Positions 7,576-15,161 of a stretch of DNA of 58,003 bases are shown here, in pieces. This stretch comes from an uncultured Bacteroidia bacterium. GTDB lineage: Bacteria > Bacteroidota > Bacteroidia > NS11-12g > UBA9320. The stretch spans positions 1 through 58,003 of the forward strand of contig CALSMN010000007.1 of assembly GCA_943787465.1 (NCBI GenBank), written 5' to 3'. A program made the translations under genes and the position numbers. The notes under the pieces were generated by a model that did not search any database, was not told the origin of the DNA, and was given only the letters and a program-made list of their open reading frames with translations. Numbering within the stretch: position 1 is the first letter of the stretch; each line of letters starts with the position of its first letter.

Positions 7576-9393
7576 TTATTCAAAGGTTTGTAAATCTACC
7601 AATTTCTTATAGATTCCATTGTTTTGCATCAACTCATCATGCGTTCCTTGTTCTGTAATTTTACCTTTATCAAGCACCACTATTTTATCTGCTTTTTGTA
7701 TGGTACTCAATCGATGAGCAATGACTATACTAGTCCTATTTTGCATTACTTTATCAATTGCGTCTTGCACCATTTTCTCACTTTCAGTATCCAATGCACT
7801 AGTAGCTTCATCCAAAATAAGTATAGGAGGTTCTTTAGCAATTGCCCGAGCTATACTCATCCGTTGTCGTTGACCGCCACTTAAATTTGTTCCCTTTTCA
7901 CCCATATTGGTATTATAACCCGCTTTCATATCTGATATGAATGCGTGTGCATTGGCTACTTTAGCTGCCTGTAAAAGCTGATCCCCACTCATGTATACAT
8001 CACCCATTCGAATATTATTTGCCGCTGTGTCGTTGAACAATATCGCATCTTGTGTGACAATGCCCATCATACTTCGAAGGGTAGATAAATCTAGTTGAGC
8101 TATATCTTTACCATCAATAATAATTCTGCCTGATGTCAATTCATGAAATCTAGGAATTAAATCTATCAATGTAGATTTTCCTCCTCCAGATGGACCTACC
8201 AAAGCTATTGTATCTCCTTTATTAATCTCTAGATTAATCTGTTTCAGGACTAATGCATCATTGGTGTAACCAAAACTCACATTATCAAATAAGATTGATT
8301 TATTGAATGTAATATTTTTATCACCTAAAGTATCTTTTTCTTCATCCTTGTCTAATATTTCATTAATTCTTCCCATGGATGCAGCACCTTTTTTTAATCG
8401 AAAAAAGGCTTCAGAAATTCCTTTTGCTGGAGGAATTAATTGAGAAAAAATAGCAATATAGCCTATAAGGACTGATGGAGGCAAAGATGAATTTTCAGAT
8501 AAAATGAGAGAACCACTATAAATTAGGATACTACTCAATACGATACTTGCCATAAACTCACTCATGGGAGAAGCCAATAATTCTTTTCTGTTTAAGCGAA
8601 CCATTTGTTTAAAATGATCATCATTTAGTGTTTTGAATTTCTCTTGTTTATCTTTAATAGCACTGAATGCTTTTATAATTTTGATGCCGTGTAAACTTTC
8701 TTCTAGATGTGATAATACTTCTGACAATTTCTCTTGACCTGCTTGTGCAGCATTTTTAAGCTTTTTACCTATCCTACTGATCAGAAATCCACTTAATGGA
8801 AGAACTATAATTACAAAAAGTGTTAACTGATAACTCATCATAAATAATACAACCAAGGGTATTAAAATTGATAATGGATGTTTAAAATATAGCTCGACTA
8901 CACCCAAAAGACTCCATTCTACCTCTTTTACATCGTTGGTAAAACGAGACATGGTATCTCCTCTTTTTTCTTTATTAAAATAACTCAGCGGCAACTTCAA
9001 TAAATGATTATAGATGTGTTCCCGAATATCACGAACCACTGCACTTCTCACATAAGCTAAATTATAAAAAGCAAGATATAAAGCTGCATTCTTTAAAAAG
9101 AAAGCAATTACAATTCCAACGGAAAAATAAATGAGTGCCATTTGCTTACCTAACTCCATTATTTTAGCACTCATAATATAATTCAAATAAGTCATCCAAG
9201 TGTTGGGATCTGAGGTCATTTCAACGGGAGATAAAGATGCTTTATCTCCATAAAAAATAAGTTCTAGAAAAGGGATAATTAGAGCTATGCTTACAACATT
9301 AAACATAGCTGTTAGTAAATTAAAACTAAAAAAATTAATTAACCTTGAGGTATAGGGTTTAGCTAATGCAAATATGTTTTTGAACTTAATCAA
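7576..9393 (-). CDS. MsbA-like ABC exporter (fused permease and ATPase)
   Basis: 605 residues. The N-terminal type IV exporter membrane domain (about 1-330, six predicted helices) is followed by an ATPase domain with Walker A GPSGGGKST (about 395-403), Q-loop VTQDA, signature LSGGQRQR, Walker B ILILDEATSALD and H-loop IAHRLST. This is the homodimeric half-transporter architecture of MsbA/LmrA-type lipid or drug flippases. In Bacteroidota such genes are often assumed to export lipid A core, but substrate is not readable from sequence. The start codon is TTG; no ATG or GTG fits. It lies 41 nt downstream of the B12 operon on the same strand with no terminator seen, so read-through is possible. 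Confidence 0.93.
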   Translation of the reverse strand: MIKFKNIFALAKPYTSRLINFFSFNLLTAMFNVVSIALIIPFLELIFYGDKASLSPVEMTSDPNTWMTYLNYIMSAKIMELGKQMALIYFSVGIVIAFFLKNAALYLAFYNLAYVRSAVVRDIREHIYNHLLKLPLSYFNKEKRGDTMSRFTNDVKEVEWSLLGVVELYFKHPLSILIPLVVLFMMSYQLTLFVIIVLPLSGFLISRIGKKLKNAAQAGQEKLSEVLSHLEESLHGIKIIKAFSAIKDKQEKFKTLNDDHFKQMVRLNRKELLASPMSEFMASIVLSSILIYSGSLILSENSSLPPSVLIGYIAIFSQLIPPAKGISEAFFRLKKGAASMGRINEILDKDEEKDTLGDKNITFNKSILFDNVSFGYTNDALVLKQINLEINKGDTIALVGPSGGGKSTLIDLIPRFHELTSGRIIIDGKDIAQLDLSTLRSMMGIVTQDAILFNDTAANNIRMGDVYMSGDQLLQAAKVANAHAFISDMKAGYNTNMGEKGTNLSGGQRQRMSIARAIAKEPPILILDEATSALDTESEKMVQDAIDKVMQNRTSIVIAHRLSTIQKADKIVVLDKGKITEQGTHDELMQNNGIYKKLVDLQTFE

Positions 9394-9434: not shown

Positions 9435-10439
9435 CTATGGAAAAAAGAAATCACCTGCTATAATTCCTACAAAAAAAGTATCCTTTAGCAGGCCTTGATA
9501 ATCATATACAAACACTTCACTTCTACTCACAAAATCTCTCACATCTGAAACATAAACATCGCTAGATATTGGATCTATATTGATTCCAAAAAAAGTACGA
9601 TTTTGATGTGCAATAAATGGCTTCGGAATAGCTGATTTTGAAGACATACTCCAGATATCACCATTGATAAAATACAACTGATCCAAGCGAGTATCATATC
9701 TTAATTGCGTTGGATTTTCTTTTAGTTCTATTTTCAAATCTAACTCACCCGTAATCGGTTTATCGATACGAACTAAACAAGGTAATTCTTTAAGCTCCTC
9801 GTCCCCTCTACAAAGTACCCAAAGACAAGATTGATTATCTACAATCAATGATTCAGGAGATGAGCCTACTTGAATACTGTCTACAAGTTTATCATTTGAA
9901 ATATCTATGGCATAAAGCTGATTAGTTGATGATCCAGTATACCAAAAAAGACCATCAATGAACACCCCTTTTTCAGACCATCCTCGACAAGAAATCGTGT
10001 GAGTTATCTCATTTTTAGCTAAATCAATCACATTGATTCCATTAGCATAAAGATCTGTAACATAGGCTTTATTTTCATTCAACGGATACATATACCTAGG
10101 AGATGTTAGCCCACTAATTTCTCCAGTTTGCTTATACATGGAATCTGTAATTATAATTTTTCCTGAATTATTCATCACGAAATAATACGAATTTTTATGA
10201 GTAGAAATCGATTGAAAAACATTACCTAAACTCTTTCCATTAACTGCTTTAAATACCTCATTTTGAACAGATTTTGTTGACGGATTGTACAGAGAAAGTG
10301 TACCCTCTCCCCAACCAAAATTTCCTTGATTGGCAATTAATATATCGGTATTTTGTATTGTTATTTTAGGTTTTTCGGAGTGTTCACTGCAAGCTCCAAA
10401 TAATACAATACCTATAATAAATGCGATTATTGTACGCAT
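9435..10439 (-). CDS. BtuG-like surface lipoprotein, YncE/DUF5074-type beta-propeller
   Basis: 334 residues. A lipoprotein signal ends at Cys17 (IVLFGAC). A YncE-type propeller follows: ILIANQGNFGWGEGTLSLYNP is the standard first blade of DUF5074-like proteins, followed by repeats such as AYVTDLYANGINVIDL, NQLYAIDISNDKLVDSIQVGSSPESLIVD and DVYVSDVRDF. In gut Bacteroides the BtuG propeller lipoprotein binds cobalamin very tightly and caps the BtuB receptor (established). The same role is inferred here because this is the last gene of a riboswitch-controlled B12 operon. Its start overlaps the preceding gene by 13 nt, which suggests translational coupling. Confidence 0.82.
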   Translation of the reverse strand: MRTIIAFIIGIVLFGACSEHSEKPKITIQNTDILIANQGNFGWGEGTLSLYNPSTKSVQNEVFKAVNGKSLGNVFQSISTHKNSYYFVMNNSGKIIITDSMYKQTGEISGLTSPRYMYPLNENKAYVTDLYANGINVIDLAKNEITHTISCRGWSEKGVFIDGLFWYTGSSTNQLYAIDISNDKLVDSIQVGSSPESLIVDNQSCLWVLCRGDEELKELPCLVRIDKPITGELDLKIELKENPTQLRYDTRLDQLYFINGDIWSMSSKSAIPKPFIAHQNRTFFGINIDPISSDVYVSDVRDFVSRSEVFVYDYQGLLKDTFFVGIIAGDFFFP

Positions 10440-11368
10440 ATTTTTTGGACAAATTGTTTACCCTGATGGATAAGTTCTACAAAATAAATACCTGGTTGAG
10501 TGATGTATAGTTGCTGATTATTTTCAATAAAATGAACGGATTTGTAGTTTATATCAAATACACGGCATTCTGTAGCATGAGGTGCTTCAATATGTAAAGG
10601 TTGATTTATTTTCAGAACAGTTGGATATACTGAAACATTAGACAAAATGCTCTGTTGAATATCCAATAATTCACCATTAACTATAGCCACAGCATCTAAA
10701 TCAAATCCACTACTTTCAAAGGGGCTAGGAAATGGGTCGTTGATTAATCGGCCCTTACTATCTCTGGTTCCAAGGGTGTCATTAACACTACCAACTACAT
10801 CGATAACTCGAATAAAATAAATGGTATCCATACCGATCTCATCTAAATCAAACAAAGTACCGTAAGGTGCCTGATGCTTTCCTGCTAAATTATATAACTG
10901 ATATGGATCTGTGTAACTAAAATTATTGGTTTGATAGGATGTATCTGTTAAACTCTCACTTGGAAACCGAATAAAATCAATTCCATTTTTACTTACCTCC
11001 ACATGAGCTAGTTCAAGATAATATGAAAGACCCACTTTAAAACCATTTTCAAAAATTGCAAAGTCATACCCTCTATGATTAATAACGGGTTGGTCAAAAC
11101 TCAACGTGGCTTGTCCTCCGTCTCCCAAACTTACAACAAGACCGTCAGCACGGTTAAGTGCATCCGCAGCACTACCCGTTGATGGTTTGCCTAATGCAGT
11201 ATCATTAATTTGCATCGGACCTCTCTCTAATGTCACACCTGTAGCCCAACCTACAATGGATGAGGCATCATTAAGAATGGACTTGCTACCTAGCTCCCCA
11301 CCTGGACCGTCAAACTGAGCACATAGCCTTATTGTTAAAAAAACTACGATTAATGATGATATTCTCAT
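10427..11368 (-). CDS. T9SS-secreted surface protein of the B12 operon
   Basis: 313 residues. A Sec signal peptide (MRISSLIVVFLTIRLCAQ) is followed by a beta-rich region of about 210 residues with GYDFAIFENGF, ELAHVEVSKNGIDF and SSGFDLDAVAIVNG. The tail (from about residue 240: VSVYPTVL...ECRVFDINYKSV...GIYFVELIHQGKQFVQKICVQ) has the layout of a T9SS type A sorting domain. The family is repeatedly found in Bacteroidota cobalamin loci, but its biochemical function is unknown to me; a surface accessory or ligand-binding role is inferred from position. It overlaps its upstream neighbour by 4 nt and its downstream neighbour by 13 nt. Confidence 0.78.
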   Translation of the reverse strand: MRISSLIVVFLTIRLCAQFDGPGGELGSKSILNDASSIVGWATGVTLERGPMQINDTALGKPSTGSAADALNRADGLVVSLGDGGQATLSFDQPVINHRGYDFAIFENGFKVGLSYYLELAHVEVSKNGIDFIRFPSESLTDTSYQTNNFSYTDPYQLYNLAGKHQAPYGTLFDLDEIGMDTIYFIRVIDVVGSVNDTLGTRDSKGRLINDPFPSPFESSGFDLDAVAIVNGELLDIQQSILSNVSVYPTVLKINQPLHIEAPHATECRVFDINYKSVHFIENNQQLYITQPGIYFVELIHQGKQFVQKICVQ

Positions 11369-13044
11369 TGTTTCATAAACTTTGATACACTCATTCCGTC
11401 ATTTGTGTATACACGAGCATAATACAATCCCCTATTCAAATTAGAGACATCCATCTTATAAAATGAGGAGACTGTGGTACAATTCATTTCTTGTATAATT
11501 AGTCCCGACAAAGAAAACAATTCAATACGTTGAATGTTCGAATGTGCTTGAATATTTAATGTTTGTTGTGTAGGGTTGGGGTAAAGCTGTATAGATGAAA
11601 TCGCATAATCTTCTACAGACATGAGTTCTTGCTGAGCTAAAGAAAGGCAAAAATAGGCTGGTGTATTTATTCCCCATGTACCTATATCTGAAGATTGTAA
11701 TTCAAAGTCTACGCGATCACAAGATACGATATCAGCCATTTGCCAATCTTTCAGAATATAGTCTTTTGAATTTTCCTCAAAACGATAATCAGCTAGATAT
11801 ATCGTATCGGTATGCAAAATGTGATTAGAAGAAGAAATACTTTTAATTAACAGACGAAAATAGTCTGGATCATCACCACTTTCACCCCCAAATTTTTTAC
11901 TAAACCCACTACCATATCTCATGTCCAATGCAGCATAGGTCGCATTGGTAATGTAAAAACGAACGGGTACGGGTAACTGTACTAGACCAAATATACTCTC
12001 TTCTTCATCGTCAAAATAAGGAGATCTTATACTATTAGTAATACCACTATTTACAAAATGGACTTGCTCAAAATTCCAGGTTGATTCAGGTATTGAAACC
12101 AACGGTTCCTGGAAAGCAGCATACTGATTTGTATATCCAGGAGATACAGTATCATATATTGAGCTCACACTCCAGCCCGACCAAGATTCAAAAGTAGCAT
12201 TATAGGTATTTGGAAAAAACAAATGTGATACTGAAAAACCGCCTGCTTGGTCCTGTCCGTTGTAAAATGTATCTGGATTCATGATGATTTTTTCGGGTAT
12301 AATTTGAGCCGTGCTTATCGCATTAAAATCATCCATACATAAATAGGTCGGAGTTCGTATTCCAAAACTGTTGGTATCTGAACTCTCAAAGACAAAAGCG
12401 ATACTATCTATCTTACTGTCTTGGCTTTGATCATTGTTAAAATCCACATATACCCAATCATCAATGATATAATCACTCGATTGATCATCAAATCGAAAAT
12501 CTGCTAAAAAGAACTCCGTTGAGTCCATAATATTACCAGCCAAGTAGGAATAAATATGCACACTTAAAAAATCAGGATCATTCCCCGACTCACCACCAAA
12601 CTTTTTACTAAAGCTACTACCCTCTAACAGATCATAATAGGTATAGGTGCTATTGGTAAAATAAGCTCCAGAAATAGGTGAAGGTCTATCTAACTTGATA
12701 TACGTATTGCCATAACCAACCATATAATTAGCCGTATGACTTACCCCATGTCCAGGAATGGCACTAAATTGATTCCCATATCCCGGTGTGATTGTATCGG
12801 TCATATTGCTCAATGCCCAACCTGTCCAGCTATCCCATTCTGAATTATACTCATTGATCCAATTACGACCAAAATGAAAAAATTTGCCATTGATATCTGC
12901 ACCATTGTTAAAGGTATCTGATTGAATCAAAGATAAATTATCAAACGTAGAATACACTCTTGGATGATTGAATTGTCCAAATGAATTTAGGTGATTTGTG
13001 AGGATTAATAAAAATGTAATTAGGTTTAAAATTAGTTTTTTCAT
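11365..13044 (-). CDS. Double-DUF4465 T9SS-secreted protein of the B12 operon
   Basis: 559 residues. A signal peptide (MKKLILNLITFLLILTNHLNSFG) precedes two tandem DUF4465 domains, about 40-245 and 255-470. Each shows NG.D..G.F, W.SW.GW..S...DT..PGY.NQ, the nearly identical SFSKKFGGESG.DPD, and LADYRF/LADFRF, DYI..DW, and ending in WGINTPAYFCL or FGIRTPTYLCM. A type A sorting tail (about 485-559, IQLYPNPTQQTLNIQ... GLYYARVYTNDGMSVSKFMKQ) predicts T9SS export and surface attachment. DUF4465 genes commonly travel with B12 TonB receptors. One or both domains may bind cobalamin, comparable to BtuH-type proteins of gut Bacteroides, but that equivalence is recalled, not tested. It overlaps both neighbours by 4 nt. 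Confidence 0.82.
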   Translation of the reverse strand: MKKLILNLITFLLILTNHLNSFGQFNHPRVYSTFDNLSLIQSDTFNNGADINGKFFHFGRNWINEYNSEWDSWTGWALSNMTDTITPGYGNQFSAIPGHGVSHTANYMVGYGNTYIKLDRPSPISGAYFTNSTYTYYDLLEGSSFSKKFGGESGNDPDFLSVHIYSYLAGNIMDSTEFFLADFRFDDQSSDYIIDDWVYVDFNNDQSQDSKIDSIAFVFESSDTNSFGIRTPTYLCMDDFNAISTAQIIPEKIIMNPDTFYNGQDQAGGFSVSHLFFPNTYNATFESWSGWSVSSIYDTVSPGYTNQYAAFQEPLVSIPESTWNFEQVHFVNSGITNSIRSPYFDDEEESIFGLVQLPVPVRFYITNATYAALDMRYGSGFSKKFGGESGDDPDYFRLLIKSISSSNHILHTDTIYLADYRFEENSKDYILKDWQMADIVSCDRVDFELQSSDIGTWGINTPAYFCLSLAQQELMSVEDYAISSIQLYPNPTQQTLNIQAHSNIQRIELFSLSGLIIQEMNCTTVSSFYKMDVSNLNRGLYYARVYTNDGMSVSKFMKQ

Positions 13045-14870
13045 GTTGAGTAAATTTTATAAGTTAATGTTATTTTAAGCGTCCTCCCAGGTAAGGGAGT
13101 TCTAGGTTGAGTGTAGTATGGTGTATTCCTTACATTTGTTAAGGTGGCACTTATTCGCAAGGTTTTGTTAGAGTAATAACCACCCACGTCAATTAGCACA
13201 TAGGGGTCAATGAAAATAGAATTATCGCTGGTGACATAATTTTTACCTACCTGTTGAAGATTCATATACACCCCACTGCGTCTAGAAACGAAGCTAAGTG
13301 TTAAATTACTGCTAAATTGAGGTGTAAAAATAAGTTGTTGATGGTGACGAGGATCCGTTTTATTGTTATAGACATAAACAGACCTCACATAATGTGCATT
13401 GGTTTGAGCCAATAGCTTATATTTTTGGAAAGGGTATGTATAAGAAGCACTCCCAACAAGACCAACTATCTGGACTTGATTTAAGTTATATGGCTTAATT
13501 TCAGGAAACCCGCCCCATTGAACCCAGTTCTTAAAAATACCCCCATGCGGATTGAGTGTCCATTGAAATTGATTATTAGTCTGGGCTAGTATAAAATCTA
13601 CCTTATACCCCTCTTCTGGTTTAAGGTCAATATTTCCCATAGCCTCCCCCGGCTGATACCAAAATAATTCGTTGAGCACGGGCAATCGATATACTTTCTG
13701 CAGATTAGCCTTCACCATATACTTTGAATGAACTCTATAATTGATGTCTAATGAAATACGGGTAGCCCATTGTTGTTCAGTATGAATAGCTCCATGAGTG
13801 TAATTTAAATATCCCTTTTTAAATTGTTTTTTTATAATAAAGGATGCTTTATTTCTATTCCAATTTACCGACTGACGAAGCGCATCTGAAGTATAGTTTG
13901 CTTGAAGATTACTCCATAAAAAATGATAGGACCAGTTTTTATTGAACCGCTTGTTAAAACTTAAATTGGTATTCAAATTAATAACATTACTTATGCTATT
14001 TTTAGAAGTAGGAGTAGCTTGAAATCCTATTTTCTCTTTGGAAAGTTGATTACTGATTTTTAAAATGGAGCGATTTGAAAATGTTTTTTGATACTCCGTG
14101 AGTAAAAATCCATTGTTATCTTCTTGTCTACTAAGTTGATTTTCCCCGATAGATGGAGGAATACCTCTGTTTGCAGTCAAAAAATAAAATTGGGAGGTAA
14201 TGGAATTATTCGTCCAGGCATAGTTGATATTTTGCATTACACTGGCCCGATGAAACTCCGTATTTTGTAGAAAACTATCCAATTGATAGTGCTTTAAATT
14301 AATTTTATTTTCTGATTTAATTGTAGAAACACTCAGGCAATATTTAAGATTTTTATGTTGAAAAGCATACGCACCCGATACGCCATATTCATGTAAAGAA
14401 CTCAAACTAGCATTTATATTTATTCCCGTTTGAGGAAAATCTGATTGTAGGGAAATTCCTTCTCCCATGGATTGAATACCCAACTTGTTCATGTCCTGAG
14501 ATGTAAATTGAATGGAATTAAAATGTACCGCATCTATCAAACTTAAATCCATGGTACCATTCATGCTACTTTGCATATTGATTCCTTGAAGATATATGGG
14601 AATGTGCATGGAACCTAAGCCTTTATACGATGGAGTACTCAAAGTCGCATTTCCTTGGCTTCTTATAAACATACCACTTTGTTTTTGCAATAATTCAGCA
14701 AAAGTCTGATTTGGGTTAGATTGAAACAGAACTTGGCTAATCAGTTGTTTATTAGACGCAAACTTATTATAACTTACAGCTACAGAATCTAGACCATACA
14801 CCACTGTATCTTGAGCCATTAATTGATGGCTCAAGAAAATAAAAAATAAGACAGCAGTTGCGAATTTCAT
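13041..14870 (-). CDS. btuB: TonB-dependent outer-membrane receptor, BtuB-like
   Basis: 609 residues with a Sec signal peptide (MKFATAVLFFIFLSHQLMAQ). A plug domain (about 40-150, with LLQKQSGMFIRSQGNATLSTPSYKGLGS) is followed by a 22-strand-type barrel, including LNELFWYQPGEAMGNIDLKPEEG, a standard TonB-receptor barrel motif. No carboxypeptidase-like (SusC) N-terminal domain is present, so it is a compact BtuB-type receptor. The cobalamin substrate is inferred from the riboswitch just upstream and from the DUF4465 and BtuG-like genes downstream. It is the first gene of the operon and its stop overlaps the next start by 4 nt. Confidence 0.9.
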   Translation of the reverse strand: MKFATAVLFFIFLSHQLMAQDTVVYGLDSVAVSYNKFASNKQLISQVLFQSNPNQTFAELLQKQSGMFIRSQGNATLSTPSYKGLGSMHIPIYLQGINMQSSMNGTMDLSLIDAVHFNSIQFTSQDMNKLGIQSMGEGISLQSDFPQTGININASLSSLHEYGVSGAYAFQHKNLKYCLSVSTIKSENKINLKHYQLDSFLQNTEFHRASVMQNINYAWTNNSITSQFYFLTANRGIPPSIGENQLSRQEDNNGFLLTEYQKTFSNRSILKISNQLSKEKIGFQATPTSKNSISNVINLNTNLSFNKRFNKNWSYHFLWSNLQANYTSDALRQSVNWNRNKASFIIKKQFKKGYLNYTHGAIHTEQQWATRISLDINYRVHSKYMVKANLQKVYRLPVLNELFWYQPGEAMGNIDLKPEEGYKVDFILAQTNNQFQWTLNPHGGIFKNWVQWGGFPEIKPYNLNQVQIVGLVGSASYTYPFQKYKLLAQTNAHYVRSVYVYNNKTDPRHHQQLIFTPQFSSNLTLSFVSRRSGVYMNLQQVGKNYVTSDNSIFIDPYVLIDVGGYYSNKTLRISATLTNVRNTPYYTQPRTPLPGRTLKITLTYKIYST

Positions 14871-15127: not shown

Positions 15128-15161
15128 CAAACATAGAACATTAAACGTTGACTTAAACAAA
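15128..15161 (-). promoter_or_regulatory. Promoter of the B12 operon
   Basis: On the minus strand TATGTTTG (15128-15135) matches TAnnTTTG and is preceded at 22 nt by TTTG (15158-15161), within the 17-23 nt spacing reported for Flavobacterium promoters. The predicted start site falls at the first base of the riboswitch P1 stem. Confidence 0.6.

Follow-up and report, generated by a model that had tools for sequence, protein, structure and literature searches.

A predicted cobalamin-scavenging operon with two T9SS-tailed accessory proteins in an uncultured Bacteroidia bacterium

The stretch of DNA analyzed here, hereafter the window, comprises 58,003 nucleotides of contig CALSMN010000007.1 from an uncultured Bacteroidia bacterium (assembly GCA_943787465.1), and on its minus strand four genes follow a cobalamin riboswitch. 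These genes probably form an operon for scavenging cobalamin (vitamin B12), in which two accessory capture proteins, predicted to be exported by the type IX secretion system (T9SS), would act beside a BtuB-BtuG importer. Vitamin B12 is scarce and competed for in water, soil, and the gut. The reading up to T9SS targeting draws on sequences, profiles, and structure models, while the binding of cobamides by the two accessory proteins, their location, and the hand-over of the vitamin are what we infer.

All four open reading frames (ORFs) were confirmed on the minus strand, in the order BtuB-type receptor, tandem-DUF4465 protein, a third protein of 313 amino acids that is here named P3, and BtuG-type lipoprotein. 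Adjoining genes overlap at 13041-13044 (4 nt), 11365-11368 (4 nt), and 10427-10439 (13 nt). An earlier note on this DNA had described four such genes with overlaps of 4, 4, and 13 nt behind a cobalamin riboswitch, and both the ORF coordinates and the riboswitch score agree with that description. The possibility that these overlaps mark something special about the locus was rejected in favor of the usual tight packing of operon genes: many operons have 4-nt overlaps, and overlaps of 8-16 nt between P3 and btuG are seen in relatives too. The gene order is likewise kept in relatives, which argues that the arrangement of the operon is not due to chance.

The riboswitch aptamer (RF00174; 14967..15134, minus strand) scored 74.1 bits (E 1.9e-16) against a cut-off of 31.5 bits and lies just upstream of the receptor gene, the first of the operon; an alignment of riboswitch homologs (alignment A2) makes the conserved core and the B12 box visible. 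No further cobalamin riboswitch was found in the 1.97 Mb genome, which is 99.5% complete. At the 5' end of the aptamer stands a Bacteroidota-type -7 promoter box, TATGTTTG (TAnnTTTG; 15128..15135, minus strand). Of 64 homologous riboswitches, 46 have the same TAnnTTTG pattern in the 70-nt stretch around the start of the aptamer, mostly exactly at -1, compared to 3.9% of random 70-mers. Folding of the leader RNA gave no excess signal over shuffled sequences (z 1.14), and scans for sigma-70 promoters and terminators remained at chance level.

The core of the predicted importer resembles characterized cobalamin transporters. The TonB-dependent receptor (13041..14870, minus strand; 609 amino acids; Pfam Plug 29.8 bits, cut-off 23.9) has its best PDB matches in BtuB of Bacteroides thetaiotaomicron (8p98, 2.6e-11), and the beta-propeller protein (9435..10439, minus strand; 334 amino acids; Pfam DUF5074 8.7e-13) matches B. 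thetaiotaomicron BtuG (8bmx, 1.4e-55) over its full length, with residues 4-332 aligned to 8bmx_D. BtuG of B. thetaiotaomicron sits on BtuB as its lid (PMC10404256). Other uptake systems are generally known to have TonB receptors and YncE-like propellers as well, such that the operon could import heme, another tetrapyrrole, or an iron chelate and be under B12 control by coincidence. We regard this as highly improbable, as both core proteins have their best PDB matches in the BtuB/BtuG pairs of B. thetaiotaomicron and several independent B12-linked features meet in this one operon.

The second gene (11365..13044, minus strand) encodes a protein of 559 amino acids with two DUF4465 (BtuJ-type) domains (Pfam DUF4465 twice, 3.4e-75) and a T9SS type A tail recognized by TIGR04183. 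The first domain (12325..12840; PF14717 146.7 bits) has the HI loop RTPTY, and the second (11644..12195; PF14717 117.6 bits) the HI loop NTPAYF, a form shared with proven binders; both retain the HI-loop and DE-helix tyrosines. In an AlphaFold model of the protein, the first domain superimposes on B12-bound 9hmu with Z 27.8 and 1.6 Å at 34% identity, and the second domain matches 9hmu (2.6e-8), 9i2l, and 9fct in the PDB. Whether DUF4465 domains bind corrinoids at all, a point on which the earlier note had made its proposal depend, had already been answered in 2025-2026 for B. thetaiotaomicron BtuJ and distant homologs, eight family members in all (PMC12751083, PMC13398666), one of which comes from Fluviicola taffensis (PMC13398666). 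Searching the genome family by family revealed no other DUF4465 gene. Two DUF4465 domains in one frame are present in 29 of the 31 DUF4465-bearing genomes of the window's own family, and no tandem ORF was seen in the sister family. In a tree of the domains the second domains of the window's family cluster (87/90, on a branch that is not fully supported), and the tree suggests a separate DUF4465 duplication in another lineage (L141, L162), although the deep nodes of this tree are weak.

P3 (10427..11368, minus strand) yielded little when its sequence was considered alone: Pfam, NCBIfam, and PADLOC returned its tail and a weak match to the LIC_13355 lipoprotein family and nothing else, phmmer against the PDB found gingipain tails only, and a scan of the genome contigs gave no match. 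Its link to BtuH emerged only with profiles and structure. The AlphaFold (AF2) model, built from 68 homologs, has a mean predicted local distance difference test score (pLDDT) of 92.1, and its best match among 991 PDB chains is B12-bound BtuH2 (7biz_B; Z 13.0, 2.5 Å, 153 residues, 20% identity), followed by the BtuG-BtuH fusion BtuGH (8blw; Z 11.9, 24% identity); the comparison with BtuH proposed in the earlier note has thus come out in its favor. The P3 profile also matches the BtuH half of 8blw (8blw_B; E 0.003, or 0.1 for a profile of the core only), and 9 of the 11 weakest P3-profile matches in the sampled genomes are sites also matched by a 45-residue BtuH fragment. HHalign of a profile of BtuH homologs against P3 gave P 2.7e-5 over 44 columns, compared to 0.2-0.9 for four unrelated profiles; forcing HHalign to align P3 and BtuH over their full lengths gave an unreliable result, which was set aside. 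The BtuH-like core spans residues 39-231 (10676..11254, minus strand; fold and profile matches) and includes N108-x-F110, which aligns with the Asn-x-Phe of BtuH (N399-x-F401 in BtuH2); N108 is invariant among the 68 homologs. The BtuH2 residues N399 and F401 touch the phosphate and the lower ligand of B12, respectively (PMC8941943). The aligned motif is taken as N399/F401 on the basis of where it lies and of the GNAF motif that BtuH proteins share. Judged by profiles and models, P3 is a distant BtuH homolog with a BtuH-like core, and B12 would be its predicted ligand. Weak matches to the LIC_13355 family were seen in 24 of the 68 P3 homologs (alignment A3), which may point to a wider superfamily of BtuH-like proteins beyond the Bacteroidota.

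The two accessory proteins share the features of T9SS cargo. Against a TIGR04183 cut-off of 23 bits, the tail of the DUF4465 protein (11368..11586, minus strand; residues 487-559) scores 42.3 bits and that of P3 (10430..10612, minus strand; residues 253-313) 25.9 bits, and the BtuG-type protein has a lipobox (LFGAC, read by eye) and no such tail. The claim of the earlier note that two of the three surface proteins carry T9SS sorting tails therefore holds. In the tandem DUF4465 protein no lipobox was seen, and the TIGR04183 tail stands in its place; the signal peptides of both tailed proteins were judged by eye only. The tail of P3 falls below the Pfam Por_Secre_tail cut-off (15.4 vs 27), but the modeled C-terminus superimposes on the C-terminal domain (CTD) of gingipain RgpB (Z 9.5, 1.6 Å) and TIGR04183 matches 63 of the 68 P3 homologs. 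The modeled tail of the DUF4465 protein resembles the mirolase CTD (Z 10.3), and TIGR04183 matches all 23 scanned DUF4465 homologs. With a tail profile of our own, a T9SS-type tail was found at the end of 58 of 62 DUF4465 ORFs, in a set where this order and P3 loci are overrepresented; the same profile gave no match in the sampled BtuH homologs, many of which have a lipobox-like motif. The host encodes the secretion machinery, recognized by SprA (SprA_N, 3e-153), and about 60 matches to T9SS tails occur in its genome.

Homologs of P3 are present in 80 of the 108 genomes of the window's order and also in the Flavobacteriales, Bacteroidales, Saprospiraceae, and Cytophagales. A cobalamin riboswitch lies upstream on the same strand at 53 of 80 P3 loci, and at 45 of the 55 loci with at least 5 kb of upstream sequence; BtuB is found near P3 at 47 of the 80 loci and BtuG at 52. 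The gene adjoining P3 varies, encoding DUF4465, a T9SS-tailed propeller-like protein, or T9SS-tailed repeats of DUF4430, a domain of the type found at the C-terminus of vertebrate transcobalamins (PMC4350170), and at one locus (L160) DUF4465 and the P3 core are fused in one T9SS-tailed protein. In one exception (G007), the tandem DUF4465 gene stands under its own riboswitch, apart from BtuB-P3-BtuG. From these gene neighborhoods, a predicted T9SS-tailed B12-capture operon design is recurrent across the Bacteroidota. The DUF4430 repeat proteins replace DUF4465 in riboswitch operons of Bacteroidales (L085 and L127, likely also L128 and L101).

Several observations weigh against capture of B12 by the two tailed proteins. 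The HI loop of the first DUF4465 domain has Arg where binders have Asn; among 25 tandem proteins this Asn is found in 24 first domains and in all 25 second domains, and every one of these domains has an aromatic residue (Tyr or Phe). The tandem protein was modeled only fairly well (pLDDT 77.7), its second domain less well. Of the ligand residues of BtuH2 only Asn-x-Phe aligns reliably on P3, and because most of them are not mappable, P3 could keep the fold without the ligand. Further, several genera of the sister family have P3 outside of the operon with no riboswitch nearby. With ligand residues aligned only in part and some P3 genes lying outside B12 operons, P3 might instead retain a BtuH-like (CBM32/discoidin-like) fold and bind a glycan or a surface partner rather than B12, serving as an anchor or adaptor; CBM32 carbohydrate-binding modules are indeed next after the BtuH chains in the fold list, at Z 10.0 and below. 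This role is unlikely given that BtuH2 and BtuGH rank 2-3 Z above the CBM32 modules, that the N-x-F motif is retained, and that P3 is linked to a riboswitch at so many of the loci with sufficient upstream sequence. Capture of B12 by P3 is the reading we retain. The P3 genes without a nearby riboswitch (L073, L075, L077, L079, and L081) mostly adjoin genes that by eye resemble those for glutamate formimidoyltransferase, folD, and queE, and, where checked, such genomes hold a riboswitch-BtuB-DUF4465-BtuG locus elsewhere.

Taken together, the riboswitch, the BtuB and BtuG homology, the DUF4465 domains, the BtuH fold of P3, the T9SS features, and the recurrence of the design fit the proposal of the earlier note, a B12 operon whose capture layer is exported by the T9SS. 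In the predicted sequence of events, a fall in B12 would lead the riboswitch to permit expression of the operon, and BtuB, for import across the outer membrane, and BtuG, as its lipid-anchored lid, would form the importer. The two accessory proteins, one BtuJ-type and one BtuH-like, would cross the outer membrane via the T9SS and lose their tails, after which sortase processing would lead either to attachment to surface polysaccharide or lipopolysaccharide (LPS), or to release. Outside of the cell, the two proteins would bind cobamides and pass them to BtuG and BtuB. The 'secreted or LPS-attached' layer of the earlier note thus stands with regard to T9SS targeting, through the tails and the machinery, and the sequence does not separate its two fates. 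A variant of this model would have the two proteins released as soluble B12 binders, protein 'cobalophores' acting away from the cell. Type A sorting domains are generally known to be compatible with release in Flavobacteria, and type A cargo of Porphyromonas gingivalis to be attached to LPS. Nothing in the sequence decides between release and attachment, and though BtuJ of B. thetaiotaomicron acts away from the cell on vesicles (PMC12751083), we consider this variant somewhat unlikely. Capture in conjunction with BtuBG is the preferred model.

The host genome encodes B12-dependent functions: MetH domains (in two ORFs), methylmalonyl-CoA mutase, and a MeaB fusion. The MetH domains occur in two overlapping ORFs (L196; G000:C4 near 273663), the pterin and cap domains in one and the B12 and activation domains in the other, an arrangement that represents a split gene or a frameshift. 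The nearly complete genome yielded no BtuC- or BtuF-type protein, and a search with Peripla_BP_2 gave no match. FecCD matches considered as BtuC proved to be ABC-3 metal permeases (nearest matches C4:243386-245325). Beyond the operon, a gene for an MsbA-like ATP-binding cassette (ABC) exporter (7576-9393, minus strand) begins 41 bp past btuG on the same strand. Since a gene of similar size adjoins the B12 genes at L064, L065, and L071, the exporter may be co-transcribed with the operon.

The operon is built of homologs of known B12 proteins, and B12 binding by DUF4465 is already known. No report linking the T9SS to cobalamin capture was found in the open-access literature, within which three points appear to be new: T9SS export of B12-capture-type proteins, what the P3 family is, and a T9SS cassette whose members are exchangeable. 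If the T9SS does carry B12-capture proteins, many DUF4465 proteins that are not lipoproteins and are currently interpreted as periplasmic would instead be surface or secreted proteins, the uncharacterized P3 family would gain a testable function, and T9SS mutants should lose B12 capture. Free-living Bacteroidota would then possess a cobamide-capture system of their own, parallel to that of gut Bacteroides.

The closest known systems are btu loci 1 and 2 of B. thetaiotaomicron (PMC10404256, PMC8941943, PMC12751083), which likewise have a cobalamin riboswitch, BtuB with its BtuG lid, and accessory proteins of the BtuJ (DUF4465) and BtuH folds. In gut Bacteroides, including B. thetaiotaomicron, BtuJ and BtuH are surface lipoproteins, whereas their counterparts here are T9SS-tailed; additionally, DUF4465 is doubled in the window and the operon has no btuFCD. 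The window protein shares with the DUF4465/BtuJ family (IPR027828; PMC13398666) the jelly-roll domain of B12-binding type and the HI-loop and DE-helix tyrosines, and adds the tandem arrangement and the T9SS tail, while the lipoprotein anchor of BtuJ1/J2, which does not define the domain, is not present. More than 70% of this family have been described as lipoproteins and the remainder as having periplasmic targeting signals, with no mention of the T9SS (PMC13398666). Similarly, P3 has the fold and the Asn-x-Phe motif in common with BtuH (7biz, and the C-terminal part of BtuGH 8blw), but at about 20-24% identity and as a compact single core, in which a T9SS tail replaces the lipid anchor and the PKD or propeller domains.

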